54,213 bases of DNA from Singulisphaera sp. GP187 (GTDB taxonomy: Bacteria > Planctomycetota > Planctomycetia > Gemmatales > Gemmataceae): NCBI GenBank assembly GCA_945905925.1, contig CAMDQN010000028.1:1-54213 (forward strand), written 5' to 3'. The notes beneath the pieces were generated by a model. That model did not search any database, was not told the DNA's origin, and was given only the letters and a program-made list of their open reading frames with translations. Below are positions 9,517 through 43,702 of the stretch, in pieces. The translations under genes were made by a program, and so were the position numbers. Numbering within the stretch: the stretch's first letter is position 1; each line of letters begins with the position of its first letter.

Positions 9517-10302
9517 ATGCAAATCACCGTTCCCGAATTTCGCGCAGCGAAGACGAAGGGCGCGAAACTCGCCGTCGTCACGGCCTACGACTACACCTCC
9601 GCGCGACTCTGCGACGAATCGGGGGTTGACGCGATCCTCGTCGGTGATTCGGTCGGCATGGTGGTGCAGGGGCACCCCAATTCGCTGCCGGTCACGCTGG
9701 CCGAGATGATCTACCACACCAAATGCGTGATGCGCGGCGTGAAGCAGGCGCTGGTCGTGGGCGATCTGCCGTTCATGACGTATCAGGTGAGCGCGAAGCA
9801 GGCGGTGCGGAGTGCGGGCCGGTTGATGAAGGAGAGCGGTGCGCACGCGGTGAAACTCGAAGGCGGCGTGCGGATGCGTGCCGCGATTCGTGCGTGCGTG
9901 GACGCGGGCATCCCGGTGATGGCGCACGTCGGTTTAACGCCGCAATCGGTTCACCAGATGGGCGGGTTCAAGGTGCAGCGCGACGCCGACGCGCTGCTCG
10001 CGGACATCGCCGCGGTGGAAGAAGCCGGCGCGTTCGCGGCGGTGGTGGAGAGCGTGCCCGCGGACCTCGGCGCGAAACTCACGGCCTCAGTCACGATCCC
10101 CACAATCGGCATCGGAGCGGGTGCCGGGTGCGACGGTCAGGTATTGGTGTTTCACGACCTGCTCGGGTTGTACCCCGACTTCAAACCGAAGTTCGCGAAG
10201 CGCTACGCCGACCTCGGCGCCGCGGTGAAAACGGCAGTGGAGTCGTACTGCAACGAGGTGCGAACGGGGGCGTTCCCGGCTGCGGAACACACCTTCCGGT
10301 AA
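9517..10302 (+). CDS. panB: 3-methyl-2-oxobutanoate hydroxymethyltransferase
   Basis: Transfers a hydroxymethyl group from 5,10-methylene-tetrahydrofolate to 2-oxoisovalerate, giving ketopantoate for pantothenate and CoA synthesis. The 261-residue sequence carries the family motifs VVTAYDYTSA, the metal/substrate region VGDSVGMVVQGH, AVKLEGG, AHVGLTPQSVHQMGGFK and PTIGIGAGAGCDGQVLV. The start at 9517 follows TGGAG at 9506-9510; an upstream in-frame ATG at 9493 falls in the repeat. No other pantothenate genes are adjacent. Confidence 0.95.
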   Translation: MQITVPEFRAAKTKGAKLAVVTAYDYTSARLCDESGVDAILVGDSVGMVVQGHPNSLPVTLAEMIYHTKCVMRGVKQALVVGDLPFMTYQVSAKQAVRSAGRLMKESGAHAVKLEGGVRMRAAIRACVDAGIPVMAHVGLTPQSVHQMGGFKVQRDADALLADIAAVEEAGAFAAVVESVPADLGAKLTASVTIPTIGIGAGAGCDGQVLVFHDLLGLYPDFKPKFAKRYADLGAAVKTAVESYCNEVRTGAFPAAEHTFR

Positions 10303-26072: not shown

Positions 26073-26876
26073 ATGCCGTCACCGTTTCCGGGAATGGACC
26101 CGTGGCTGGAACGCCCTGCGGTGTTCCCCAGCGTTCACAACGCCCTGATTACCTACCTCCAGGCGGCGCTCAACGCCGCGCTGCCGCCGGGTTACGTCGC
26201 GGCTGGCGACAGCCGGGTATACGTCGATCCCGAGTTGCGGCGGGTTCCCGATGTTGGCGTGTTCGGGCCGGACGCGGGGGTGTCCGGGGATGCGGCAGTA
26301 GCCGTGGTGACGCTCACGCAAGCCGGACTGCTCGCGGCGGCGACCGAGGCGGTCAGCGATCCGGTTGAGGAACTGTACCTGGAAATTCGATCCGTGGAAG
26401 ACGAACGGTTGGTGACCACAGTCGAGGTGGTCAGCCCCGCGAACAAGAAGGCGGGCGAGGAAGGGCGGGTGTCGTACCAACAGAAGCAGGGCGAGTGCCG
26501 ACTCTCCAAAGTGAACCTTGTGGAACTCGACCTGCTTCGCGGCGGACCGCACACGACGGCGATCTCCGCAGCCCGCCTCCGCGTCATCGCGCCGGAGTGC
26601 GACTATCACGTGTGTGTGATGGTGGCTGGTTCGCCGATCCGCTTTTTCGTCGCCCCGATCAAGTTGGCCGACCGGCTGCCGAAAGTGCCGATCCCGCTCG
26701 ACCCGGGTGTCACGCCGGTGACAATCGATCTGCAAGCGGTGTTCGACCGCTGCTACGACGAAGGCGGCTTCGCCAAGCGCGCGAAGTACACCAAGCAAAA
26801 ACCGGACCCGCTGCTGACGCCGGAACAGCAGGCGTGGGCTGAAGACATCCTCCGCGCGAAGGGGTTGCTACCGTGA
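26073..26876 (+). CDS. DUF4058 family protein
   Basis: A 267-residue protein with the DUF4058 opening MPSPFPGMDPWLE and the LEIRSVEDERLVTTVEVVSPANK strand region, which is reminiscent of PD-(D/E)xK-like or Uma2-like folds. The function is unknown; the family is common in cyanobacteria and planctomycetes, often in accessory regions. It has a strong AAGGAGG site 12 bases after the gcvPA stop and overlaps the next gene through GTGA. It is an insertion within the glycine cleavage operon. Confidence 0.88.
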   Translation: MPSPFPGMDPWLERPAVFPSVHNALITYLQAALNAALPPGYVAAGDSRVYVDPELRRVPDVGVFGPDAGVSGDAAVAVVTLTQAGLLAAATEAVSDPVEELYLEIRSVEDERLVTTVEVVSPANKKAGEEGRVSYQQKQGECRLSKVNLVELDLLRGGPHTTAISAARLRVIAPECDYHVCVMVAGSPIRFFVAPIKLADRLPKVPIPLDPGVTPVTIDLQAVFDRCYDEGGFAKRAKYTKQKPDPLLTPEQQAWAEDILRAKGLLP

Positions 26877-27610
26877 ACGAGGACGAAGCCTTCATTCGTG
26901 CGATCGTGGACAACCCCGGCGACGATACGCACCGGTTGGTCTACGCCGACTGGCTCGACGACCGCGACGACCCACGCGGCCCATACCTGCGCGCGGAAAT
27001 GGAATGGGTGCGCACCGGTAAGAAGGTGAAAGCGCTGCGATCTCTCGGTGCAACACTCGACGCAGTGTGGATGTATCGCGTGAGCCGCCCGCCAGTCGGC
27101 ATTTGCTTCTTCAGCGATTCAGTCTTCGAGGAAGGGACGCTAGGGCCGCAACTCTCGCTTATCGATGTCGAAAGCGCGGGCGCACAGTTCGGGGGCTTCC
27201 CCCACGACTACACAGCGTTCCTTCTTAACTACAACGGCGGCCAACTGACGGCTTCCCTTAATGTTGGTGGCTATGAGGTGAGCGGGTTTGTGACGATCAA
27301 CGGTGACTTTACATTTCGTGATGTTCTCAAGCGCCTGTCGGATGATGGAGAGTATGCAGATTGGGGTAGAATCCCGTTCGCGTATCAGTTTGGCTACGCC
27401 AATCACCACTACTGCCATGTTGCGATGATCATGAGGAGATCGCATGGGCAGGGAAGAGTCTCACGCCCAGTCTACTATTACGATAATCCGTGGGCAAATG
27501 AAGTGTACGATGAGGACTTGCCCGCTGCGCTGCGTCAGAATAACGACCGGCGTGTAGCGTCCAGCTTCACTGCTTACATCGACGAGATGGATACATTCTT
27601 CAACTCCTGA
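26873..27610 (+). CDS. TIGR02996 domain fused to an SMI1/KNR4 (SUKH) domain
   Basis: A 245-residue protein with an N-terminal TIGR02996 module (EDEAFIRAIVDNPGDDTHRL, VYADWLDDRDDPRG). It then has a SUKH-type domain recognisable from FGGFPHDYTAFLLNYNGG, INGDFTFRDVL and IPFAYQFGYANHHYCH. SUKH proteins are best known as immunity proteins against polymorphic toxins. The GTG start overlaps the DUF4058 stop. The second half is visibly lower in GC than its neighbours, suggesting acquisition by transfer. No toxin gene is adjacent. Confidence 0.78.
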   Translation: MNEDEAFIRAIVDNPGDDTHRLVYADWLDDRDDPRGPYLRAEMEWVRTGKKVKALRSLGATLDAVWMYRVSRPPVGICFFSDSVFEEGTLGPQLSLIDVESAGAQFGGFPHDYTAFLLNYNGGQLTASLNVGGYEVSGFVTINGDFTFRDVLKRLSDDGEYADWGRIPFAYQFGYANHHYCHVAMIMRRSHGQGRVSRPVYYYDNPWANEVYDEDLPAALRQNNDRRVASSFTAYIDEMDTFFNS

Positions 27611-29382: not shown

Positions 29383-31605
29383 ATGGCCGACCCGATTCCC
29401 CGGCCGCGCGGTCGCGCCTTCTTCCTTGCCGCGCTCGCCGCGCTCGCGCTCTCCGGCGCGGCTCGCGCAGAACCAGCAGACCCCGCCATACCGGAGAAAC
29501 TCGCCAAACTGCGGTACGGGTGGCACGAGCAGCACGCCCGCCACGAAGCCGCCGGGTGGGAGGTCGATCTCATCGCGCCGCCGCGCCCGGTCGGGCGGCC
29601 CATCGGTCAGTTCCAGAACCCGACCGCACTCGTCGGGGAACTCGGCCCAGTCCTTGCCGACGATTACGTCGCGCTCCGCAACGCCGCGCAGAAACTCGCT
29701 GAAGCCGCTCGTACGCGCCGCGAGGACGCCAAAAAAGACTGGGAAGAGGTCTACAAGCAACGGATCGCGTTCCGCAAGTACGCGGACCAGCAGCAGACCG
29801 CCTACGGCTTCGACCTCGACACCGGCGCGCAGTTGGGCTTTCACCCCACTGTGTTCGATGGTGCCGTGGTCGCGTGGGCAGTGGTCGTGTTCGTAGTGGC
29901 GCGATCTCTCGGAAAGCGGGCGCGCCGCGTATCGACGCGCCGGACGCGCCGGGCCGCGGTTCTGGGGGTGCTGCTCGTCGTCACGACGGTGCCGGGGTGT
30001 TCGTCCGGCCTCGCGCTCGGTTTGAGCGACTGGGCCGCGCGCGAGGAAGCCGAACTCGTCGCCGACACGAAGGACGCGACCGAAAAAGCCGATACCGCGA
30101 CCGCCGACGCCGACAAGAAGTGGAAGGCCGCAGTGGATGGCTGGGTGAAACTCGTCACGGTTCCGGGCGCGACCGAGCCGTCGGTCGAAACGGTGGTGCG
30201 TGACGGCGAGTCACAAGTTCGCGAACGGCTCCAGATCGCCGCGCGCGAGGCCCGGCTCGCGGACCGGCTTGCGAAGGAAGCCGAAAGCGACAAGACGCAA
30301 CTCGCGACCGATCGCGACCGGCTCGACAGCCTGAGGAGTGGTTCCCGCTGGCGGTCGATCGCGTTCGCAACGGCGCGGTGTTTGGGAGCCGCGTTGCTAT
30401 TCGGGTTGGCCGTCATGCCGTACCGACGCGCAGTGCGCAAAGAAGCCGCGATCGTCAAAGCCGACGCGAAGAAGTGCCCACGCTGCTTCAGCGAAAAGCT
30501 CGTCGTCGAGAAAACCGGCACGATCCCTGGCGCGGAAGAGTCCGTACGCGAAAAGGACGAGGAGGAAGACGACGCGCCGCGCCCGCGATACCGGTCCGGC
30601 AAGCGGAAGCCACCGCCCCCGAAACGCAAGTCTGCGGCAGCGTCTACCTCGGCCGCGAGCGAAACCGGTTACGTCGAGTGCAAGACGTGCGGCTTTCGCT
30701 TTCTTCGCAGTTACCAGAAGGTGCGTCGGCTGTGTTTCCCGGTGGTCGGTGTGCGGAACAGCGGCAAGACGCACCTGCTCGCGACCGCCTACGACAAGGT
30801 GCGCAAACAGAAGGCGCCCGCCGCCGCGACCGTCGTACCGGCCCCGTCACTCGGTGACGAGCGATTCGACCTGTACATCGACCTGATCATGAACATGAAG
30901 CGCGACGCCGGGAACACGTTGCACGACGTGAACACTCCGCCAGACCCGGTGATGATCCACATTCGCGACACCGACCCGGCTGGCGCGAACACTGCCATCG
31001 TGAACCTGTTCGACTACTCCGGCGAGTTGGTGAACCAGAAGATCGACGTGGACCGTCTGAAGAAGCAGGCGGTCAAGATGGACGGGTTCATGCTGTTCCT
31101 CGACCCGACCCAACTCGACGGGCGATCGGGCGGTGTGACGCTCGACCGGCAACTCGCGGCGCTCAACGAGTTCATGGCCGACATGCGCGAGGCGCGTGGC
31201 GTCGATCCCGGGGACGTGATCCCGGTCCCGGTCGCGATCGTGATTCCCAAGTTCGACCTGCTCGTAACCCGCAACCCGATTCACGGTCAGTCGGTCCCGT
31301 TCATCCGCAGATTGCTCAGCGAAATGAATCCCGCACAGCCCAAGCGGACGACTCTCGGCATCGTTCGGGAGCGCAGCGAACTGGTGGAGGACATGCTGGA
31401 GTTGATGTTTCGCGGTGTGGACGTGCGAGCGCTGGTGGAGAGTTACTTCGGCAACCAGGTGATGTTCTTTCCGGTATCATCGGTAAGCCTGTTCGAGAAC
31501 GAACTCGGCGTCGAAGACCTCTCGCAGCGCACCATTGCGCCGTTTGGCGTGGCGGAACCGTTCCTGTGGTTGCTGCACATGCACGGGTATGAGGTGTTTG
31601 CTTGA
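29383..31605 (+). CDS. Membrane-anchored zinc-ribbon GTPase (TRAFAC/DO-GTPase type)
   Basis: A 740-residue protein. It has a signal-like N-terminus (RAFFLAALAALALSGAARA), hydrophobic segments near residues 160-176, 195-215 and 326-347, coiled-coil-prone helices between them, and a zinc ribbon (C365/C368 and C433/C436) split by an acidic-basic linker. A GTPase domain follows: G1 GVRNSGKTHLL (from 456), G3 as DYSGE (from 544), FLDPTQL and G4-like IPKFDLL (K623). The D-x-x-GE switch and the fused zinc ribbon match the DO-GTPase2 family of NTP-dependent conflict systems. Nothing recognisable is seen in the 241-base gap upstream. It is the first gene of a five-gene cassette. Confidence 0.78.
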   Translation: MADPIPRPRGRAFFLAALAALALSGAARAEPADPAIPEKLAKLRYGWHEQHARHEAAGWEVDLIAPPRPVGRPIGQFQNPTALVGELGPVLADDYVALRNAAQKLAEAARTRREDAKKDWEEVYKQRIAFRKYADQQQTAYGFDLDTGAQLGFHPTVFDGAVVAWAVVVFVVARSLGKRARRVSTRRTRRAAVLGVLLVVTTVPGCSSGLALGLSDWAAREEAELVADTKDATEKADTATADADKKWKAAVDGWVKLVTVPGATEPSVETVVRDGESQVRERLQIAAREARLADRLAKEAESDKTQLATDRDRLDSLRSGSRWRSIAFATARCLGAALLFGLAVMPYRRAVRKEAAIVKADAKKCPRCFSEKLVVEKTGTIPGAEESVREKDEEEDDAPRPRYRSGKRKPPPPKRKSAAASTSAASETGYVECKTCGFRFLRSYQKVRRLCFPVVGVRNSGKTHLLATAYDKVRKQKAPAAATVVPAPSLGDERFDLYIDLIMNMKRDAGNTLHDVNTPPDPVMIHIRDTDPAGANTAIVNLFDYSGELVNQKIDVDRLKKQAVKMDGFMLFLDPTQLDGRSGGVTLDRQLAALNEFMADMREARGVDPGDVIPVPVAIVIPKFDLLVTRNPIHGQSVPFIRRLLSEMNPAQPKRTTLGIVRERSELVEDMLELMFRGVDVRALVESYFGNQVMFFPVSSVSLFENELGVEDLSQRTIAPFGVAEPFLWLLHMHGYEVFA

Positions 31606-31624
31606 TGGGTGTACTGTCTTGGTT

Positions 31625-31804
31625 TTCGCCCTGAAGAGGCGGGACAGCATAACCCAGGGCAACGCCCTGGGTGGCGGTGGGAACGAAATGTACCCTGTGA
31701 AGGGGTGCGACACTCACCTGTCCCAGGCCTTCAGCCTGGAAATCAAATGATGTCGGACCCAGGGCTTTGCCCTGGGCTATGCTGTCCCGCCCCTTCAGGG
31801 CGAA
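31625..31804. repeat. Inverted repeat with nested CCCAGGGC-GCCCTGGG palindromes
   Basis: Arms 31625-31672 and 31757-31804 match over 45 of 48 bases. Each arm ends in a nested palindrome (CCCAGGGC, three bases, GCCCTGGG), and the spacer carries a further one (CCAGGCCTTCAGCCTGG). It fills most of the 217-base gap between the GTPase and kinase genes. The right arm supplies the AGAGGA that precedes the kinase start. Part of the same unit (GAAGAGGAGCATAACCCAG) recurs before the GAP1-like gene. Confidence 0.9.
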
Positions 31805-31822
31805 GAGGAATGCAACGAACCA

Positions 31823-34753
31823 ATGGCGAGTTGGCCGACACAATCCGACTACAAGGACTCGCTGCAGAACCCGGACACCGCGTTTCGCGACCCGGACCTG
31901 CGGCTGAGCCAGGCAGAGCGCAGCCCCATGGGCGTGCCGCGCGCCCGGTCCGGTGCGTTCGCCAGCGTCTACAAGATGACCGGGCCGAAAGGCGTCGTCG
32001 CGCTCAAGTTGTTCAACTTCCCGAACGAAGACCGCGCACGCCGGTACAAAGCCGTTTCCGACTACCTCGAAAAGGAACTCGGACCCAAGAAGCCGCCGTG
32101 CGTGGTCAAGTTCCAGTACCACACCGAAGGCATGCGCGTCGGGAAGGCGTGGTATCCCACGCTCACGATGGCCTGGGTCAAAGGGGTGTCACTCGGCGAG
32201 TGGGTTCGGCAGACCGTCGAGAAGAAGGTGCCCGACCTCGCCGCCGTGCGGAAGATGGCCGACAGTTGGGCCGCGCTCGTTCAGCAACTCCAGAACACGA
32301 AGATCACACACGGAGACCTCCAACACGACAACGTGATGGTTGTCGGCGACGTGCCATTGCTCGTCGATTACGACGGCATGTGCGTGCCCGCACTCGATCC
32401 AATCGACCTGACCAAGAAGCTCGAACAACTCGAATTCGGCAAGCCCGCGTACCAGCACCCGGCACGGTGCGCCGAGAAACTTCACGGCAACCTCGACCAC
32501 TTCTCCGCGTGGGTCGTCTTCGTTGCCCTTCGCGCGATCGCGGCCGACTCGCGCCTGTACGTCGAATACGTTCTCAAGACCGAGAACGAGAACCTGCTGT
32601 TCACCGTCCCTGATATGCAGACCCCGGCAGGCTCAAAGCTGTGGTCGGATCTGATGAAGAGTAAAGACCCGGAGGTCGCGAACTGGGCCAAGGCGCTGCG
32701 GGCATCCCTGGACAAGCCGTTCAAGAATATCCCGGTGTTCTCACTCGACCCGTTCGAGAAACTGCGGTCACTCGCGTCCGCGGCAACACGCGACTGGGTC
32801 CAGATCGAAGCCGAAACCGTTCTTCTGAAGAAGTCCGGCAAAGAGATTCCCGCCGACCTGCGCGACAAGGTGAACCCAGTCGGCGCGCTGAAGGAGTTGT
32901 GCGACACGCGCGTGAAGGACTGGCCCAAGATCGCGGCCGAAGGCGAGCGCCTGCTCGCGACCGGGCGCGTGGTGCTGCCCGACGTGAAGCCCACCTTCGA
33001 GGAAGCTCGCAAGCGGGTTGCCGCGCGCGACGCGGTGAAGAAGGCGCTCGACGAGAAGAACCCACGAGCCGCGGCAGCCGCGTACCCGCCGGCGCTGATC
33101 GACGACTGGGCCGACGCCGCGCTGCTGGCGGGCGCACGGGCCGCGGCGGTGCAGGTGGCACTGCTCGATAAACTGAAAATCGCGGTCGCGACGTCGGGCG
33201 ACGGGCGCGCGATTGTGAAGCTCTGGGACGACTTCGCGCCGCAACTCGCGTCGGTTGCGGAGGCGCGCGCCTATGAGACGGCCGCGAATGGATGGCGGAA
33301 CCGTATCGGCGCCGCGGATGATTTCCTTCGCGCGTTCGCCCGGTCGCCGCAGACCGAGCGCCAACTCGCCGAGGCGTGGCAGGCGGTCAAGACCGCGGGA
33401 CCGCTTCACCCAAGCCTGACCGACGCTCACCGCAATCGCGGCGAGGACGCACTGCGATGGTGGCCGCTGCTGGAGAAACTGCAGCGCGTGTCGAACGTCG
33501 CGTCATACGAGAACGACACCAAACTGAGCGGCGCGTGGGGCACCGGCTCCGCGCTCGCCGGGTGTACCGAAGCCGTGGTATTCACGGTCCGGGCGACCGA
33601 AGCACGGGCACGGCTCGCGCTGGTGGAATCGCTCGAACGCGCGATCCGGCAGGCCGAAACTGGCGGCTCCGAAGATGCCGTCGTCGCAGCCGCGAGCAAA
33701 CTGCCGCTGAACTACCCGCACCCGTATCTGACCCGCGTCGGCGAGGGGTCCGAAGCGATCCGTCTGTTGGGAGAAATTCAGCGAGCCATCGAGCAGCCGA
33801 ACCCGTCGGACCGCGCCATTGCCGCCGCGTTCGACAAACTCAACGCACGGAACCCGAAGCTCGCGGGCCGGCTCGACCGGGTGAACCCGGTACTGTACGC
33901 CGAGGTCGCGCACGCGGTCCGGCGGCGTAAGTTGCTCGACCGGTTCGCGCGCATCGACAAGGACGAACCGAGGCCCTACAAGCAAGACAAGAAGTGGCTC
34001 GAACTGTGGTCCGAGGCCGGCAAGGAGTTGCGAAACCGCCGCGACTGCGAAGAGTTGCGAACCCGGTACACCTTGGCCCGCGATCGCGTCGAGAACTGGA
34101 GCAAGGTCGCCGAGGCGCTGAAAGCCCGCGACATGTTCGCGCTCCGCGAGCGGTACGCCAAGTACGCCCCGATTCTGGGTGACTACCCGCCGCTCAGGGA
34201 CCGCTTGCCCGAGATTCAAGAACTGCTGGCGAAGGCTGATCGCGTGATCGGCATCAAGCAGAAGATCGACGCGACGAAGGCGCTCGCGCCCGACGACCTG
34301 GCGTTCCTGCGGGACAACCACACGGCATTCGGTTCTGACACCAAGGCCGCGATCGAATCGCAAGTGCGGGCGCGGTTGGCCGGCGACGCGAAGTTGGTGC
34401 CCGCGTACCCGGCGTACTCCGTTACCGGCCGGCGCGGCGGTTTGGTGAAAGCGTGCTGGGCATGGAGCGGGCACGGCCTGATCGCGCACTGTATCGTCGC
34501 GGTGGATGGCCGCCGGTTCTTGCGTGACCCGTCCGAGGCTGATCCTTATTCGCGGCTCACGTGTCTTGCCGAGAACCACCAGCGCGAGGGTGGCGGGGTC
34601 ACGGTCGTTCCGCCGGGCGGCGAGTCTCACGCGTATGTGACCATCTGGCCGGTTGTGGAGTTGGGGTGGGAGACGATCTACGGCCCGCCGCTGACCATCG
34701 GCCCGGTGCCGGTGGGCACCGGCAGTGCGAGCACGAGCGGAAGCCGGTGGTGA
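31823..34753 (+). CDS. Atypical protein kinase with long alpha-helical tail
   Basis: A 976-residue protein. Residues about 40-280 form a protein-kinase fold: glycine-loop-like RSGAFASVYKM, lysine K62 in VALKLF, a catalytic loop HGDLQHDN (D165, N170) and a metal-binding D182 in VDYDG, replacing the DFG motif. Helical repeats without a recognised family follow for some 580 residues. The last 120 residues form a beta-rich domain (YPAYSVTGRRGGLVKACWAW ... VTIWPVVELGWETIYGPPL). There is no transmembrane segment. It probably phosphorylates or senses other cassette members. The ATG at 31823 is 13 bases from AGAGGA, rather far. Confidence 0.78.
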   Translation: MASWPTQSDYKDSLQNPDTAFRDPDLRLSQAERSPMGVPRARSGAFASVYKMTGPKGVVALKLFNFPNEDRARRYKAVSDYLEKELGPKKPPCVVKFQYHTEGMRVGKAWYPTLTMAWVKGVSLGEWVRQTVEKKVPDLAAVRKMADSWAALVQQLQNTKITHGDLQHDNVMVVGDVPLLVDYDGMCVPALDPIDLTKKLEQLEFGKPAYQHPARCAEKLHGNLDHFSAWVVFVALRAIAADSRLYVEYVLKTENENLLFTVPDMQTPAGSKLWSDLMKSKDPEVANWAKALRASLDKPFKNIPVFSLDPFEKLRSLASAATRDWVQIEAETVLLKKSGKEIPADLRDKVNPVGALKELCDTRVKDWPKIAAEGERLLATGRVVLPDVKPTFEEARKRVAARDAVKKALDEKNPRAAAAAYPPALIDDWADAALLAGARAAAVQVALLDKLKIAVATSGDGRAIVKLWDDFAPQLASVAEARAYETAANGWRNRIGAADDFLRAFARSPQTERQLAEAWQAVKTAGPLHPSLTDAHRNRGEDALRWWPLLEKLQRVSNVASYENDTKLSGAWGTGSALAGCTEAVVFTVRATEARARLALVESLERAIRQAETGGSEDAVVAAASKLPLNYPHPYLTRVGEGSEAIRLLGEIQRAIEQPNPSDRAIAAAFDKLNARNPKLAGRLDRVNPVLYAEVAHAVRRRKLLDRFARIDKDEPRPYKQDKKWLELWSEAGKELRNRRDCEELRTRYTLARDRVENWSKVAEALKARDMFALRERYAKYAPILGDYPPLRDRLPEIQELLAKADRVIGIKQKIDATKALAPDDLAFLRDNHTAFGSDTKAAIESQVRARLAGDAKLVPAYPAYSVTGRRGGLVKACWAWSGHGLIAHCIVAVDGRRFLRDPSEADPYSRLTCLAENHQREGGGVTVVPPGGESHAYVTIWPVVELGWETIYGPPLTIGPVPVGTGSASTSGSRW

Positions 34754-34770
34754 GCGAGGCGAATTCGGAT

Positions 34771-34790
34771 CCAGGGTCGTGAGACCCTGG
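34771..34790 (+). terminator. Hairpin with short T tract between kinase and GAP1-like genes
   Basis: CCAGGGTC, a GTGA loop and GACCCTGG form an 8-bp stem followed by TTTCTT. It resembles a weak intrinsic terminator or attenuator and lies inside the otherwise tight five-gene run, so it could set the ratio of upstream to downstream products. Confidence 0.5.
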
Positions 34791-34818
34791 TTTCTTGGTC
34801 GAAGAGGAGCATAACCCA

Positions 34819-37581
34819 GTGGGACAACCGGGACGGCACGCGAACGGTGCGGGTGGTGACCAGTTCTACGTCACCCACTGCACCATCACGGACAGCGTGC
34901 TGAACAATCCGGGCTACACGGTGCGCGCTGCCTCAGCGACCGAGTCGGCGGCGCTCGACGGCGCGTTCCACTACCCGCCCTATGAGTTGCCCATCGACCT
35001 GTGGCGTGAGTTGCCGCCGCCCGTGTTCTCGCCGCGCCGGCTCGCTCGCACCAAGAACCCCAAAGGCGGCGTGTGGGCGGTTCACTCCGCTTACCTCGCA
35101 AAGGACACCGTCGATCGCGACCGCTCGTACTTCTCGCACCTGCTCCTGCTGCCCGACGCGGACCCGGCCGCTGTTCTAAAATCGTGGGGCGCCGACGCGT
35201 GGGCGATCAACTACCCGCTCGGCGCGCCAAAGGCGCTCCCTGGGGATGCGGCACTGCCCGCAGGCGCACTCGTCAACGATGCGGCGCTCACCGCGTTCCT
35301 CGGCGACGAGCCTTCTGGACCGACTGAGTTGAGCGTAACCGTGTGCCCGGAACGGCTGCGCGACAACGCACCTGCCCGGCGCGAACTCTTCGCACGCATG
35401 TTGCGCGCGATGCTGCTCCTCGCGGAAGAAGAGAGCGAATCTCGCCGCCGGCTCTACGTTCACGCAGAACCTGGATTGGTCGCGTTGCTGCTCTATGGTT
35501 GCGTGCGGCTACTCCCGCCGGCCGTGACCGATGACCTCACGTTCTCCACCTTCGAGGCGTACCACCGGAACATCCGCGACTACAAACTCGCGGAAGTGGT
35601 CGGCACGTACCTCGGCACGCTCGACCGCGGACTCGACCCGGACCTCGGCACCACGCGCGGCATCGCGCTGGACACGTTCGCCGCGAACCGCTCTTCGCCC
35701 GAACTGCGTGCGGGCGCGGCGCCCGAAGGCGTGGCCGTTCTCATCGACCTCGCTGAGAGCGGCGATTGGGATTTGCTCCCCGCGGTGCGGCGCGCGATCG
35801 GGGAAGACCCCAGCGGACTGCACGAAGCTGGTGCCGCACTCGCCCGCGCACGTTCCCTGGCCCGCGTCGATGCCGGGACCGTGACCATCGACGAACTGCT
35901 CTCGCTCCAGGCCGACAATCGCGCGGCCGAAGGGCTGAAGTCGCGTGCGGAACAGGCGTGGCCGGTGGTGAAGGCCGCCGCGCTCACGCGAGCCGACGTG
36001 CGCACCGCGTTCCGCGAACTGATCGCGTGCCCGGACCACCTCCGGGAACTCTGGGAGGAAGCAATCGAGGCGATTCTGAAGGAGGATTTTCGCAAGTGGG
36101 ACGCGCGCTGGGTCGTGGTTCGCGCCGCGGCTGGGACCGAAGAAGCGTCGCGGTGGCTCGACAAGATGGTGGGCCGCGAGAAGAACGAACACAAGCTGTC
36201 GAAGCTCCCGACCGACATTCGGAACAAGCTGCGGACCGCGTGCGCGGACGTGGGGCTGTTCCCGTCGCGTGCGTTGCTCGTGCCCACCGGGCTGGGCGAA
36301 CTGGACACGCTGCTCCGCGCGCGACCGGACTGGGCCGGGTACACCGCGTTCATCCTCATGGCCGAAGACAAGTGGGACTGGCTCTCGCACGTTCCACAAC
36401 CCGGGCGCTCGCAGATGCGCACACGTGGTCGCGCCTACTTGTTCGCCGCGCCCCCGACCGCTATCGCCGCTTACGTCCGCGCGGCCCGCCCGTTCCTCGA
36501 CACCGACTCCTCGTTCCTCGCCACGCTCTTCATGCCGTACTCGGACGACGCCGCGGCGCTCATGGACAAGTTGCTCGCGTCCACCTCTTTGGAGCCGGGC
36601 GACTGGATGAAGTTGTGCGAAACGGTCGGGTTGCTTCAAGACGACTGGGGTAACTTCCTGTTGGAGAAAGACCGGCTCGCGAACCTGCTCGTGGGTCTCG
36701 GCGGCGACGGTCTCGGCAAGGATGTGTGGGCCGGTTACCTCGGGCTGCTCACACCGGCGCTCGTGTCGCCCGACCTTATCGAGGTGGAAGGCGAAGACGA
36801 TCCCGCGACGATCCACAACTGGGAACGGAAGGTTCACGCACACCTGTGTTCCGCGGCGGCCAAACTCACGGCCGCCGACGTGCGGCTCGTTCAGGCGCTC
36901 CCGCCGGGCGGCGTGGCGCGTCTGTTCGCCGCGAATGGCCTGGTGAAGTGGGTCGATTCGCCCGCGTCCATCCCGCGGGACGCGCCGGACGAAGTGTCGC
37001 ACGCGTGCGACACGTTCGAACTGGACCGACTCGGCCTCGTGAGCGCCGCGTACAAGAAAGCCGGACTCGACCGGCTCGCGCTACCAGAGCAGGCCGACCA
37101 ACTCGGCCCCATCGTGGAACTATTCCGCGCGTGTTTTCCGGTGGACGGCAGTTTCAGCACCGCGCGCCGGGCCGCGACCGAGGTGATCCGCCTTTCGGCC
37201 CAATGCCCCGCTCGTACTCGTGGCGCGCTGCAAGCACATTTCGTCCTCGCGTGCGTGCCGGACATTCACTATTCCAATTTGTTGGACGACGCCGCGCGGC
37301 AGTACCCGTTCGACCCGTTCGCGGTGGCCCGCATCCGAGAGCAATTGCCGAAGCCCGCGAAAACGCCGGGCGCGAAGCACACGGCTCCCGAACCCGCGCC
37401 AGTGGACGAGCCGTTCGCGGACGAGGACGAACCGGGCGAGGAAGCCGCGCCGCTGATTGATAAGCCTCGCAAGAGGGGGCGTAAGAAGCCGTACAAGAAG
37501 GCGAAGAAGTCTGGGTGCCTCGGGACTGTGCTGTTCGTCATTGTGATCGTCGCGCTGATTGCGCGAGCGATTCCCGTGTAG
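34819..37581 (+). CDS. GAP1-like (GTPase-associated protein 1) protein with C-terminal membrane anchor
   Basis: A 920-residue protein. The N-terminus (DQFYVTHCTITDSVLNNPGY, TVRAASATES, LPIDLWRE, YFSHLLLL) follows the strand order of GAP1 N-terminal domains, proteins encoded beside DO-GTPases. The central 500 residues are helical, and the C-terminus has an acidic stretch, a basic block (RKRGRKKPYKKAKKSG) and one transmembrane helix (VLFVIVIVALIARAIPV). GTG at 34819 is preceded by AGAGGAG at 9-base spacing; a TTG at 34795 is less likely. The GAP1 assignment is by recalled pattern and needs a profile search. Confidence 0.65.
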   Translation: MGQPGRHANGAGGDQFYVTHCTITDSVLNNPGYTVRAASATESAALDGAFHYPPYELPIDLWRELPPPVFSPRRLARTKNPKGGVWAVHSAYLAKDTVDRDRSYFSHLLLLPDADPAAVLKSWGADAWAINYPLGAPKALPGDAALPAGALVNDAALTAFLGDEPSGPTELSVTVCPERLRDNAPARRELFARMLRAMLLLAEEESESRRRLYVHAEPGLVALLLYGCVRLLPPAVTDDLTFSTFEAYHRNIRDYKLAEVVGTYLGTLDRGLDPDLGTTRGIALDTFAANRSSPELRAGAAPEGVAVLIDLAESGDWDLLPAVRRAIGEDPSGLHEAGAALARARSLARVDAGTVTIDELLSLQADNRAAEGLKSRAEQAWPVVKAAALTRADVRTAFRELIACPDHLRELWEEAIEAILKEDFRKWDARWVVVRAAAGTEEASRWLDKMVGREKNEHKLSKLPTDIRNKLRTACADVGLFPSRALLVPTGLGELDTLLRARPDWAGYTAFILMAEDKWDWLSHVPQPGRSQMRTRGRAYLFAAPPTAIAAYVRAARPFLDTDSSFLATLFMPYSDDAAALMDKLLASTSLEPGDWMKLCETVGLLQDDWGNFLLEKDRLANLLVGLGGDGLGKDVWAGYLGLLTPALVSPDLIEVEGEDDPATIHNWERKVHAHLCSAAAKLTAADVRLVQALPPGGVARLFAANGLVKWVDSPASIPRDAPDEVSHACDTFELDRLGLVSAAYKKAGLDRLALPEQADQLGPIVELFRACFPVDGSFSTARRAATEVIRLSAQCPARTRGALQAHFVLACVPDIHYSNLLDDAARQYPFDPFAVARIREQLPKPAKTPGAKHTAPEPAPVDEPFADEDEPGEEAAPLIDKPRKRGRKKPYKKAKKSGCLGTVLFVIVIVALIARAIPV

Positions 37582-37608
37582 CGTCTTACGCAACAAGGCT
37601 GGCCAACC

Positions 37609-39081
37609 ATGAACGGGCTGAAGAGCGGCGCACTCTTACTGCTACTCGGCATCCCGTTCGCGCTGTACGCGGCGTGGCAGGTCCACCGCGCCACGCCTAT
37701 CGACACGGGCGCGCCCGAACCGCCTGCCGACAAGAGCGCATCCAAAGAACAACTCGCGGCGGCACGCACGAAAGCGGCTGCGCTGTCGGGCGAATCGCGC
37801 AAAGCCGTCGAAGTGAGTTGGCAGTACCGCACTGCCGTCCCCGCGGACAACTCGCCCGACCCGACCGTGACCGCCGTCGTCAAGGCCGCGTCGGCGCGGT
37901 CCGCGGACCTGACCGACCTCGACCGGTTCCTCTCCGCGGTCAAGGAGCCGACCTTCAACGGGAACGCGGGGTTGAAGAAGCGGTACACCGAGTGGGCGAA
38001 AGACCTGGCCACGCGCGAGACCGACGCGCAGGCGGTCACCAAGTGGCTCAGCGAACCGCTGACGATCGTCTCTGTTGACGACGCGGGCAAGGCGCTGGAC
38101 AAGGTCAGCAAACTCATCAACGATTACTCGACGCGCTCCCAGTTCGCGGACAAGGGCAAGGCCACGGATTGGCGGATCAGGGGCCGGATCAAGGCCATCG
38201 ATGGACTCACGGCGCTGGCCGATGCCCAATACGCCACCACGGTAAGCGCGAACCTGCCGCTCCCGAAAGGCGCCGGCGAGAGCGCCATCGCCACGTTGAA
38301 GGAACTGAAAACGCAACTCGCTGCGCTCGGTGCCGAACTCGCAACGGCCAAACGGGACAAGGTGACGCTCGACCCGGAGGTTCGCGCCTTGGCCGACGCG
38401 AAGAGTGGAAACGCCGACGAGTACACCGCGCGCGAGGAACTGCTCGCGCTGTTCGCGAAGCCCGACCTGTTCACCAACGCGAGCGGCGCGGCCCCGTGGC
38501 TGAAACAAGTCGCGGCACAGTACAAGAAGATGGACAAGAACCCGAAGGTTCAGTCGCTGATCCGCGACAAGGTGCAGCAGTTCGCCGACGCGTTCATCCC
38601 ATCCGCCGCGCGCCTTGACGACGAGGTGCTGATCCGTGGGAAGCCCGTGCCGCGCGCGGCGGTCAGGATCAAGTTCGAGAAGAAGCCGGGAGGCGGATAT
38701 ATCGTGCCAACGGAGCTGCTGGCGGACGCCGCTGCTGGGTTCAACGAGTTCGAGTTCGCGCGGAAGCCACCAGGGTTCAACACACTCGTGACCTTCGCGG
38801 CCAGCGAGTACGACCTGAAAGACCTCGCACCGACCGAACGGAGCAAGGCGGCGGTGGCATTCAACGCGGCGCGTGCGAAATTCGCTGCCAGCACAACCGC
38901 GCCGCGCTGGACGGGGGAATCGGTGGCCGAGTTAAAAAAGGCGTGCGAAGTGCAAAAGGACTTGGTAGACCAGTTGAGAACACTCGACACAGGAACCGTT
39001 CCGAAGATCGCGACCCGCGTGGCCGGGCTGGTCGCCGGTGTGGCTGCGTGCCAGGAACTGTTCGAGGCGGAAGCCCCCTGA
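37609..39081 (+). CDS. Membrane-anchored helical protein of the GTPase cassette
   Basis: A 490-residue protein with one N-terminal transmembrane helix (GALLLLLGIPFALYAAW) and an otherwise hydrophilic, Ala/Lys/Asp-rich helical body likely to form coiled coils. No domain is recognised. A conserved-looking segment near residue 345 (RGKPVPRAAVRIKFEKK) may be beta. It is 27 bases after the GAP1-like gene and 33 bases before the next gene, so it is almost certainly co-transcribed. It may be a scaffold that fixes the complex to the membrane. Confidence 0.68.
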   Translation: MNGLKSGALLLLLGIPFALYAAWQVHRATPIDTGAPEPPADKSASKEQLAAARTKAAALSGESRKAVEVSWQYRTAVPADNSPDPTVTAVVKAASARSADLTDLDRFLSAVKEPTFNGNAGLKKRYTEWAKDLATRETDAQAVTKWLSEPLTIVSVDDAGKALDKVSKLINDYSTRSQFADKGKATDWRIRGRIKAIDGLTALADAQYATTVSANLPLPKGAGESAIATLKELKTQLAALGAELATAKRDKVTLDPEVRALADAKSGNADEYTAREELLALFAKPDLFTNASGAAPWLKQVAAQYKKMDKNPKVQSLIRDKVQQFADAFIPSAARLDDEVLIRGKPVPRAAVRIKFEKKPGGGYIVPTELLADAAAGFNEFEFARKPPGFNTLVTFAASEYDLKDLAPTERSKAAVAFNAARAKFAASTTAPRWTGESVAELKKACEVQKDLVDQLRTLDTGTVPKIATRVAGLVAGVAACQELFEAEAP

Positions 39082-39114
39082 TCGACTCGATACGAAGACA
39101 CCACAAGGGCGGTC

Positions 39115-41208
39115 ATGAACCTGCTCGTGGCGTGGAAAAAGGTTCTGCTGTTCGGTGCGTTTGGCGCGGTCGGCTGCCTGGCCGGCTGGCTCGTCGGCGA
39201 GCCGTATTTGTACGCAATCACGCTCGCGGGCGATTCCGCCGGCGCGGGCCGCGCTCCGTCGCTCATCTCCAACCCGGTGCCGCCCTCAAGTGATCCGCCA
39301 CCACTGCCCGACGATTTTCGTCGGCGGGTTGAAACGGCCGGCGGCAGTTCCGGGGACGTGCAACTTACTCTGATCTGGGACGACTCGAACGACCTCGACC
39401 TTCATTGCGTCGATCCAACGGGCTACGAAATCTGGTACAAGCAGAAAGTGTCTCCGACCCGCGGAAGGTTGGACGTGGATCGCAACGCCGGTTGTCAGTC
39501 GCCCGACCCGAAGCCGGTGGAAAACATCTTCTGGCCAAATGACTCTGCCCCACAGGGCGACTACACGGTCTACGTCAACTTTTTCCAACGCTGTCCGGGT
39601 GGCCCCGATCGCAGCGACTACCGGGTGAATATCCTCGCCAACGGTGAACGCAAGGAAATCCCCGACAGCATCACGAAAAATCCCGGCGTCAATCCGGGAC
39701 CAAAAAAGGTCGTCTACAGATTCAAGGTCGAACCCCGACTCGACCTTTACGTCCCGACAGAATTTGAAGTCCCACAGAGCAAGACAATCAAGGTGCCGGT
39801 TACGGTTCGCCGCGCGTACTTCACCGGATCCGTGGAAGTAAAAGTCGAGAACCTGCCGGACGGGGTTGTTGCCGGGAAGCTCACGATTCCCGAAGGAAAG
39901 GAAGACGGCGAACTCGAATTAAAAGCGGCTGACGACGCGAAGGAACTCACGCGCACAATTCAGTTCGTCGCTACAGGCGGGTCGCTCTCCAAACCCAAAG
40001 ACGTAAAGCTAAGTATTCCCAAACCGGCCGCGACGTTCTCGCTGTGGACGGTCGTCTCGATTGGCATCTGGACGGCACTCCTCGCGGTCGGGTTGGCCCT
40101 CGCGCTCCTGGCCGGGCAGAACAAGTACCTCGGCAAACCGCTATTCGCGTCGGGACGCGTGCCGCTCGCGCTCGTGGTGCTCGGTGCTGCCGCGGCCGGG
40201 TTCGTGTCCGGTAGCATCGGGCAGTCACTGTTCTTCGTGCTCCTCGCGAGCGGCGACGCGAAGCTCGGGTTCCTCGTCGGGTGGGTGCTGCTCGGCGCGC
40301 TGCTCGGCGGGGGCGTGAGCTTCTTCATCCCGAACCTCGACGGCAAGAAAGCCGCGCTCGCGGGTTTAGGCGGCGGGCTTCTTGGGGCAATCGCGTTCCT
40401 GATCATGTCGGAACTTAAAGACTGGATCGGGCGCTTTGGTGGGGCGGCGCTGCTCGGCTTCTGCATCGGGTTGATGGTCGCGGTGGTGGAAGCGGCCTTC
40501 CGCCGGGCGTGGTTGGAAGTGCGGTTCAGCGAGCGCGAGGTGATTACCGTGAACCTCGGCCCGGAACCGGTGAAGGTCGGCGGCGACTCGAAAGCCTGCA
40601 CTGTTTGGGCGCGCGGCGCGGCACCGATCGCGCTTCGCTACTGGATCCGCGACGGCAAGGTGTTCTGCGAGGACGTGCCGACGAAGCGTGAATCGCCCGC
40701 GCTGGACGGCGACACGCGAACCGCGGGCGGTGTCACCGTGGTCGTGCGCACGAGCGGCACCGTGGCGCCTGCGAAGAGTGCGCCGCCGCCCGTCCCGGCA
40801 CGACCACCAGCGCCAGTGCCCGCGAAGCCGCAAGCGGCGCCTCCTCCGATTCCCGCGAAGGCCACCTCGCCGGACGATTACGACGACGGCTTGCCGATGC
40901 CGATGTCGCCACCCCCGCCACCGCGCCCAGCCGCGAAGTCAATCCTCGACTTTGACGACCCGCGACCCGCGCCGGCTGCGAAGCCGCCAGTGCCCGCGAA
41001 GCCGCAAGTGGCTTCACCGGTGCCCGCGCCGCCGAAGCCTACGCCACCACCAGCGCCCGCGAAGCCGCCGGTGCCGACCGCCGCGAAACCGCCCACGCCC
41101 GCGATCGCGCCGAAGGTCGGCGACCCGGATGGGTGCCCGACCTGCGGACGGAAGGCGGTCGGGCGCCCCGGCGATCGGTACTGTATGGTGTGCGACAAGA
41201 CGTTTTGA
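39115..41208 (+). CDS. YfaP/DUF2135-like, multi-spanning, FHA-like and zinc-ribbon protein
   Basis: A 697-residue protein. Domains in order: a transmembrane helix (11-35); a YfaP/DUF2135-like domain (80-175: WDDSNDLDLHCVDPTG, GRLDVD, ENIFWPNDSAPQGDYTVYV); an Ig-like stretch (205-300); five or so membrane helices (305-460); an FHA-like beta domain (465-545: VNLGPEPVKVGGDSKACTV); a Pro/Ala linker; and a zinc ribbon (C674, C677, C690, C693). Topology would put the YfaP-like part outside and the FHA-like part inside, a plausible sensor linked to phosphopeptide reading, fitting the kinase in the cassette. No function is established. Confidence 0.72.
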   Translation: MNLLVAWKKVLLFGAFGAVGCLAGWLVGEPYLYAITLAGDSAGAGRAPSLISNPVPPSSDPPPLPDDFRRRVETAGGSSGDVQLTLIWDDSNDLDLHCVDPTGYEIWYKQKVSPTRGRLDVDRNAGCQSPDPKPVENIFWPNDSAPQGDYTVYVNFFQRCPGGPDRSDYRVNILANGERKEIPDSITKNPGVNPGPKKVVYRFKVEPRLDLYVPTEFEVPQSKTIKVPVTVRRAYFTGSVEVKVENLPDGVVAGKLTIPEGKEDGELELKAADDAKELTRTIQFVATGGSLSKPKDVKLSIPKPAATFSLWTVVSIGIWTALLAVGLALALLAGQNKYLGKPLFASGRVPLALVVLGAAAAGFVSGSIGQSLFFVLLASGDAKLGFLVGWVLLGALLGGGVSFFIPNLDGKKAALAGLGGGLLGAIAFLIMSELKDWIGRFGGAALLGFCIGLMVAVVEAAFRRAWLEVRFSEREVITVNLGPEPVKVGGDSKACTVWARGAAPIALRYWIRDGKVFCEDVPTKRESPALDGDTRTAGGVTVVVRTSGTVAPAKSAPPPVPARPPAPVPAKPQAAPPPIPAKATSPDDYDDGLPMPMSPPPPPRPAAKSILDFDDPRPAPAAKPPVPAKPQVASPVPAPPKPTPPPAPAKPPVPTAAKPPTPAIAPKVGDPDGCPTCGRKAVGRPGDRYCMVCDKTF

Positions 41209-42701: not shown

Positions 42702-43702
42702 AGCGGCGTCAGGTTTTGATTTTAGGGCACAGTGACTTCAGTTTGGTTCTCGCGTCACCGCACTCAACTCGTTCTCCGCGATGTTGAGCCAACTGCCGTG
42801 CTTGGGCGTGTGCCAGAACTCCAAACGACGCACCAGCGCACGCGCCTCAGCCAGATCGAACGCCTCGTCGAACACCCCGATCGTGTGCGTGTTCAGGTTG
42901 TCGCACACCAGGATCACCTTCTCGGCCTCGGCATATCGACCGCGCAACAAGTACGCCATCTCCACCACCCAGTCGATCTTCGTCCGCTGTTCCCACACAC
43001 CTGACGCCACCCCGCCAGTGGCGCACAGAACATGCAGATGCTCGCCGTCCCGGCCCGCTCGTTCTGGTAGTCGACCCGACGCGGGTGATCCTTGGTGTCG
43101 AGCACCACTTCCATGTGTGCCACGAACTCGCCATCGGACTTCGGAGGGATCACTCAGTACTCGATCTTCCGATTCGTCAGTCCGCTTTTTTGAGGGTCTG
43201 GCGGATCGTCTCGTGACTGATCGAGTCCACGATCTCCAACTCCACGACCTTCTCCGCCAACAGCCGCAGGCTCCAGTTGGCGAATCCGGTGGGCGGTGGC
43301 CCCAACCGCATCGCGATGACCTGGGCTTCTTGCTCGCCGTCGAGCACCTTGGGTCGCGGGCCGCGCTCGCGGGACTTGCCGTCGAGAGTGACCCCGAAGC
43401 CCAACGTCACGAACCGCTCGCGGATGTTCTCGACGGTCTTGGTGCGACAACCCACGTCCTCGGCAATCTTCGCGTCGGTCCAGGCCGAGCCATCGGCATC
43501 GGCCTTCAGTAGGATCCGCGCGCGGCGCACCTTCTGCGATGACCCCTTGAGCTTCTTGACCACCTCTGACAGCGTGGCTCGCTCCGCAACCGTGAGCCGC
43601 ACGATGTACTTCTTCTGCATAGCCGAACCTCCGGGTGGTACGACCATCATCCCAGAATCAGCAACCATCGATACCCTCGTTCTTTAACCTGACGCTGCGC
43701 TC
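42701..43702 (-). mobile_element. Degenerate IS630-family insertion sequence
   Basis: The left end at 42701 reads GAGCGGCGTCAGGTTTTGAT. The reverse complement of the right end (43681-43702) reads GAGCGCAGCGTCAGGTTAAAGA, giving imperfect terminal inverted repeats with a 2-base indel. A TA lies immediately left, as expected for IS630 target choice, but no TA is seen after the right end. The interior carries a broken transposase on the minus strand. Confidence 0.75.
42738..43620 (-). pseudogene. IS630 transposase, multiply frameshifted and internally deleted
   Basis: The N-terminal helix-turn-helix part is intact from MQKKYIVRLTVAERATL to SHETIRQTLKKAD (43620-43177), then a stop. Another frame resumes with IPPKSDGEFVAHMEVVLDTKD and jumps directly to YQNERAGTAS, so the segment with the first catalytic Asp is missing. 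A third frame carries VILVCDNLNTHTIG and TPKHGSWLNIAENELS, the second Asp and the Glu of the DDE triad. It cannot encode an active enzyme. Confidence 0.85.

Follow-up and report, generated by a model that had tools for sequence, protein, structure and literature searches.

DO-GTPase/GAP1-N2 systems were defined by comparative genomics, and a role in biological conflict was predicted for them (Kaur et al. 2020, PMC7159879). According to the same source a conserved Walker B glutamate marks the DO-GTPases. In one of the neighbourhood types described there, theme 3, the genes are joined by kinase, PP2C and vWA genes; it makes up 10% of the GAP1-N2 neighbourhoods and is reported as restricted to actinobacteria; systems with FGS and GYF domains are mentioned there for planctomycetes (PMC7159879). 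A second known gene set is the TerY-P triad of a TerY vWA protein, a PP2C phosphatase and a Ser/Thr kinase (PMC11090510, citing Gao et al. 2020 and Anantharaman et al. 2012). For TerY-P or TerY-P-like triads anti-phage activity is reported (PMC11090510, PMC7699616). Here we analysed a gene cluster on a 54,213 nucleotide stretch of DNA from a Gemmata-like planctomycete (the window) for which a preliminary description had offered no named system. On closer inspection the cluster fits both GAP1-N2 theme 3 (Kaur 2020, PMC7159879) and the TerY-P triad. A literature search, with subscription papers and bioRxiv mostly outside its reach, found no description of the planctomycete arrangement.

The five genes, here called A to E, are listed in Table 1. 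All five large open reading frames of the preliminary description are present on the forward strand at 29383-41208, and the gaps of 217, 65, 27 and 33 bases given there match those of A-B, B-C, C-D and D-E. The limit of five genes is too narrow, since up to eight are found in relatives (see below). Homologues could be aligned at 36-83% identity (9 for A, 19 for B, 12 for C, 11 for D and 9 for E), giving alignments of 10, 20, 13, 12 and 10 proteins including the window copy. Their rows were picked by eye as full-length or nearly full-length copies; left out were, for example, the A copies of loci L035 and L073-L075 and the frame-split C of L037. Relative to a near relative (genome G003 for A-D, G015 for E) the dN/dS values were 0.17 for A, 0.23 for B, 0.20 for C, 0.50 for D and 0.22 for E. 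From the homologue alignments together with these ratios we conclude that A-E are real genes. A sequence comparison of the A, B, C, E and TerY alignments with PDB chains gave no match at the limits used.

Table 1. Positions and layout of the genes and other features of the cluster (nucleotide positions refer to the window, residue numbers to the respective protein).
Feature	Position	Strand	Description	Basis
Gene A	29383..31605	+	DO-GTPase2 membrane GTPase, 740 aa	
GTPase domain of A	30739..31602	+	P-loop GVRNSGKT, Walker B DYSGE, PKFD; PF19993 match from residue 453; C-terminal limit putative, placed from conservation	
Acido-Lenti-1 RNA motif (RF01687)	31758..31802	+	in the A-B gap; 41.9 bits, gathering score 37	cmscan
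Gene B	31823..34753	+	protein kinase with long tail	
Layout of B			kinase ~1-315; alpha-helical tail ~320-855; C-terminal all-beta domain 858-963	AlphaFold2 model
Gene C	34819..37581	+	GAP1 protein; GTG start; alternative TTG start at 34795 possible	
Layout of C			GAP1-N2 15-142; GAP1-M 185-248; long C-terminal region; tail anchor 900-918	Pfam, hydropathy
Gene D	37609..39081	+	anchored helical protein	
Gene E	39115..41208	+	DUF2135(YfaP)-like and Ig-like membrane protein	
Layout of E			membrane helix; DUF2135(YfaP)-like 66-205; Ig-like 207-306; about five membrane helices 310-463; small beta domain 467-546; Pro-rich linker; C-terminal CxxC...CxxC	Pfam, model, hydropathy

The gap between A and B also contains an Acido-Lenti-1 RNA motif. 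In the near relative L028 the motif occurs twice, once in the A-B gap and once in the B-C gap (6809-6853 and 9825-9870); at the gathering score it was not found in six other loci (L030, L032-L036). In a table row of PMC2864571 it is listed for Acidobacteria and Lentisphaerae. A link of this RNA to the gene system is a candidate only and unproven.

The window copy of A matched the DO-GTPase2 profile PF19993 above cut-off (Pfam, 5.1e-9) over profile positions 4-158 of 226. All ten aligned A proteins match this profile, which supports the initial assignment as a DO-GTPase. The motifs quoted for A are present, with G-K-T, D-Y-x-G-E and P-K-F-D invariant in all ten proteins; the DYxGE element corresponds to the conserved Walker B glutamate of a TRAFAC-type DO-GTPase. 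Hydropathy predicts membrane helices near residues 151-169, 192-210 and 326-344, preceded by a signal- or anchor-like N-terminal stretch that was read by eye. A fourth peak at 610-628 lies inside the GTPase domain and was not counted as a helix. Two cysteine pairs (365/368 and 433/436), invariant in the alignment, form the pattern of a zinc ribbon with a long insert. The source genome contains one DO-GTPase2 match, after which hydropathy indicates no C-terminal membrane helix. The membrane anchoring previously proposed is borne out by hydropathy for A, C, D and E.

The kinase gene B sits between A and C. B matched the PADLOC family STK_OB (3.6e-52), covering profile positions 2-301 of 562 only. 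An AlphaFold2 model (mean pLDDT 82.7) contains a kinase fold that aligned to PKR in a structure search (Z 15.4, rmsd 3.9 over 245 residues), the search mainly covering residues 9-312, such that the kinase call stands on both grounds. The alignment shows the motifs GAFASVYK, ALK, HGDLQHDN and VDYD. VDYD is common to all 20 rows; HGDLQHDN is seen in 19 of them, L071 having G for the second D. The ATP-site lysine is replaced by arginine in L071 and L072, which stem from two other genera. The kinase of the TerY-P triad is fused to an OB fold or zinc ribbon; the tail of B is helical with a C-terminal beta domain, which lies beyond the residues that the fold search mainly covered. Kinases of the PknG type consist of a kinase domain followed by helical repeats. 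B likewise has a kinase domain followed by helices, and PknG of Corynebacterium glutamicum was Foldseek rank 2; however, that alignment, with an rmsd of 36, is no demonstration of a shared tail, and B has the C-terminal beta domain in addition. An FNIII-repeat component is a further feature of DO-GTPase/GAP1-N2 systems. As candidates for it we considered this beta domain of B and the Ig-like domain of E; among the Pfam matches listed for them there was none to FNIII.

For C the support comes from the family as a whole: GAP1-N2 and GAP1-M were matched by all 13 aligned proteins at E <= 0.1 (best value for N2 1.3e-10), while the window copy alone is marginal, with GAP1-M (PF20014) just above and GAP1-N2 (PF20013) below cut-off. 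Among the C matches listed there was none to Pfam GAP1-C. The GTPase and GAP1 calls, for which a Pfam profile search had been proposed as a check, hence both held. In G016, C is split across two frames.

GAP1 sequences also occur in natural fusions. Four genomes (G000 on contig C152, G001, G004 and G016) encode TerY fused to the GAP1-N/M part (profile about 8-347); PADLOC also recognizes the G000 fusion as TerY (4.9e-88). A different fusion, in G005, joins a kinase domain (Pkinase 1.6e-44) to sequence from the GAP1 C-terminal region (profile 347-919). In the latter genome one protein (L041, 3120-6419, minus strand) contains the kinase domain followed by two GAP1 C-terminal-region stretches, and a second, partial protein on the same contig (3-1523, minus strand) has the same kind of stretch. 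The C152 fusion of the source genome (L045, 2572-4638, minus strand) belongs to a second, compact GAP1/TerY-P locus. Next to the fusion are two STK_OB kinases, of which one (1806 aa) contains beta-propeller repeats; a PP2C and, close to the end of the contig, a partial TerY also belong to the locus. That GAP1 and the phosphorylation triad may act together is best supported by these fusions.

Protein D consists of an N-terminal membrane anchor, as seen from hydropathy, and a large domain. The domain appears helical from its sequence and is probably extracytoplasmic; comparison of D with Pfam gave no convincing family.

For E, DUF2135 was matched by seven of the ten members at E <= 1 (best 9.9e-5, window copy 0.16). 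The structural model has a mean pLDDT of 63.4, with about 80-93 over residues 66-300 and about 45-69 over the small beta domain. The fold search, which mainly covered residues 207-306, returned an Ig-like domain (Z 11.9, 94 residues, rmsd 2.0). The preliminary description of E as a YfaP-like membrane protein with a zinc ribbon is in line with these results. The FHA-like domain reading phosphopeptides that it added is not borne out by the Pfam and PDB profile searches. None of ten members matched FHA in Pfam at E <= 1 and none of four isolated domains at E <= 10, a limit at which the HMMER filters remove most matches above about 0.1. A PDB profile search was empty. FHA domains usually carry the residue pattern GR, SxxH and NG, which by eye was absent from 25 aligned rows. 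DUF3459 gave weak matches for three of the four isolated domains (0.019, 0.05 and 0.083), all below cut-off. These matches hint that the small beta domain may be another small beta sandwich. Paralogues of E in which a vWA domain precedes the membrane helices are encoded in the source genome at L088 (7830-10097, contig C54) and L089 (5589-7877, C59), the vWA match being above cut-off in L089 and just below in L088. In G004, G010 and G018 paralogues of E come after H.

In relatives the gene order is A-B-C-D-E-F-G-H. F is a TerY vWA protein (PADLOC 1e-77 in G011) and G a PP2C phosphatase (7.9e-27 in G011), whose degenerate, vWA-like N-terminal part gives a weak cross-match to the TerY profile. 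H is a secreted protein for which Pfam gave no match. The source genome carries F-G-H as a group on contig C42, apart from A-E with the kinase on C28. Its F is 90% identical to that of G015, and against profiles built here its TerY and PP2C score 652 and 970 bits, both copies being themselves rows of these profiles.

The order extends beyond the genus. G062 belongs to another genus and has A to G as seven open reading frames on one strand, with 12-60 bases between them (D at 3.1e-14). G063, from a third genus, has A-B-C-D-E-F-G, with a D of 136 aa that gives a 35-bit match and was missed by the genome search. In G112, A-B-C and D-to-H are on two contigs that both end at that joint. With A to G contiguous in two other genera, the cluster is a conserved linked unit as had been supposed; homologues are not scattered, and the profile matches held. 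E adjoins F in 14 of 19 genus genomes. Among the remaining five, the cluster of G000 is split, G014 has no E at this position, and the contigs of G005, G006 and G010 end there. G001 has A-B-C apart from D to H and G016 has A-B apart from C to H; in the split genomes G000, G001 and G016 the parts are kept at two loci. In the window the E-F break does not coincide with a contig end. Fragments of an IS630-type transposase (42738-43668, minus strand; HTH families, the other fragment by eye) lie downstream of E, where relatives carry F-G-H, and it is a guess that they caused the split. Further upstream (26073-27610) a DUF4058 and an SMI1/KNR4 (SUKH-1) gene are located between two gcvP subunit genes.

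We next consider distribution and inheritance among 19 genus genomes, of which G018 is 65% complete. Strong matches (E < 1e-50) were found for A in 15, B in 18, C in 15 and G in 19. The 15 for C include G005, where the match is the kinase-fused C-terminal region only. D was present in 16 of 19 at 5e-36 or better, in G013 with residues 5-141 only, and remnants of fewer than 70 residues (8e-6 to 7e-4) were seen in G007, G009 and G012. Long matches to E, whole or in contig pieces, occur in 18 of 19, G014 having the paralogue type only. G007, G009 and G012 keep B together with E-F-G, E being interrupted by a stop in G009. In these three genomes C was not found with all candidates scored, and A was not found among the 11 scored of 38, 30 and 29 candidates, respectively. 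G005 gave no match for B, nor for A among the 11 scored of 39 candidates. The three genomes form one clade in both the B and the GcvPB tree and show neither A, C nor an intact D, such that a single loss of the GTPase half looks likely, with the A search there being partly scored. As they keep B and E-F-G with neither A nor C detected, the two halves are separable.

Pairwise distances were compared descriptively only, because pairs share genomes. The correlation was 0.93 for B-TerY and 0.90 for B-GAP1, and lowest for the pair of A and E (0.44). With the housekeeping protein GcvPB it was 0.36 for A and 0.63-0.75 for the others, with B at 0.75. The mean distance of TerY (0.129) is similar to that of GcvPB (0.126); C, D and H evolve fast (0.51-0.60). 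The B tree, built without G005, and the GcvPB tree share the groups G000/G003/G015, G007/G009/G012, G011/G017 and G004/G008/G013, not all of them well supported. They differ on G014, which groups with G004/G008/G013 for B and with G112 for GcvPB. No match was found for C among plasmid records and none for the A GTPase domain among phage records; the B kinase domain gave matches of about 30% identity on two cyanobacterial plasmids. A phylum-wide search of 392 genomes with the GTPase profile gave at least one match, that of the source genome. Since two candidates were scored per genome among the 21 rows listed, absence of A elsewhere in the phylum cannot be read from 1 in 392. Overall the inheritance is closer to that of a core trait of the genus than to that of a mobile cassette, least clearly for A.

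On balance we favour the reading that A-E belong to an eight-component signalling system that spans the envelope and has a constitutive role, over that of an accessory defence cassette; we regard this as probable. It builds on the gene content, order and co-inheritance, the domain families, the hydrophobic segments, and the GAP1-TerY and kinase-GAP1 fusions. The extracytoplasmic parts, i.e. the loops of A, anchored D, the DUF2135 and Ig domains of E and secreted H, would act in sensing or binding at the envelope. Facing the cytoplasm, the DO-GTPase A would be the switch and tail-anchored C its dedicated GAP1 partner. Kinase B, PP2C G and the TerY vWA adaptor F would form a phosphorylation triad that adds phosphate to and removes it from a component of the complex, thereby setting the GTPase state. 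Complex formation, topology, the phosphorylated protein, the signal and the output are presumed in this scheme. Against it speaks that A follows GcvPB (r 0.36) and E (0.44) weakly and that C, D and H evolve fast. The separable halves in G007, G009 and G012, the missing A and B matches in G005, the frame-split C of G016, the placement of the triad partners on another contig in the source genome and the arginine at the kinase ATP site in L071 and L072 also count against it. A bolder form, which we consider rather doubtful, is a conserved envelope-surveillance machine in which a GAP1 hub joins the GTPase switch and the triad, serving core cell-surface signalling and not defence. Its N/M half would bind TerY and its C-terminal half the kinase; both pairings are suggested by fusions that occur separately in nature.

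A conflict or anti-phage system, in which the DO-GTPase/GAP1 pair senses invasion and the TerY-P triad drives containment or an abortive response, is possible but we give it less credence than constitutive signalling. Such a role is what Kaur et al. 2020 (PMC7159879) predicted for DO-GTPase/GAP1 and what the reports on TerY-P and TerY-P-like triads (PMC11090510, PMC7699616) would lead one to expect. The STK_OB match of B, the SUKH-1 gene and transposase fragments nearby in the window, and the fast evolution of C, D and H, as expected of a conflict system, point the same way. However, nearly every genus genome carries B and G, and the parts track a housekeeping gene. No known effector family was recognized among A-E, and at E <= 0.1 PADLOC matched only B among them. 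The lack of matches for C in plasmid records and for the A GTPase domain in phage records also argues against it, the B kinase domain having matched two cyanobacterial plasmids. The defence role proposed earlier thus survives as a candidate, disfavoured by the inheritance pattern. That GTPase-GAP1-D and kinase-E-TerY-PP2C are two independent modules and mere neighbours is improbable: the retention of B and E-F-G in G007, G009 and G012 with no A, C or intact D detected, and the breakage at different joints in G000, G001 and G016, would be expected, but B lies between A and C in an interleaved order kept in two other genera, four genomes have GAP1-TerY fusions and another a kinase-GAP1 fusion, and the B-C distance correlation is 0.90.

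The case offers a defined gene order, genomes keeping only the kinase-phosphatase half, and fusions with precise predictions, namely GAP1-N/M with TerY and the GAP1 C-terminal region with the kinase. The question of defence versus core signalling thereby becomes testable in Gemmata.

With theme 3 as described by Kaur et al. 2020, the cluster shares the joint presence of DO-GTPase2, GAP1-N2/M with a C-terminal membrane helix, kinase, PP2C and TerY-like vWA, as well as membrane helices before the GTPase domain. The kinase, PP2C and vWA genes of theme 3 are linked in relatives, while the source genome splits the kinase (C28) from TerY and PP2C (C42). The two differ, by description only, in that theme 3 is actinobacteria-restricted as reported and the present cluster is found in Planctomycetota. 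All 12 named loci matched carry planctomycete titles; the query recovers close kin and hence provides no test of actinobacteria. In contrast to theme 3 as described, the present cluster has a single DO-GTPase2 match in the genome, by hydropathy lacking a C-terminal membrane helix, a kinase with helical tail and beta domain, a PP2C with a degenerate N-terminal vWA-like part, and the extra genes D, E and H. The TerY-P triad is resembled through STK_OB (3.6e-52 in the window) and TerY and PP2C (1e-77 and 7.9e-27 in G011), but here it is placed inside a GTPase-GAP1 cluster, with TerY and PP2C of the source genome on another contig. As judged from these families, the cluster fits a joining of DO-GTPase/GAP1-N2 theme 3 and the TerY-P triad and would extend the predicted conflict-system family to Planctomycetota.
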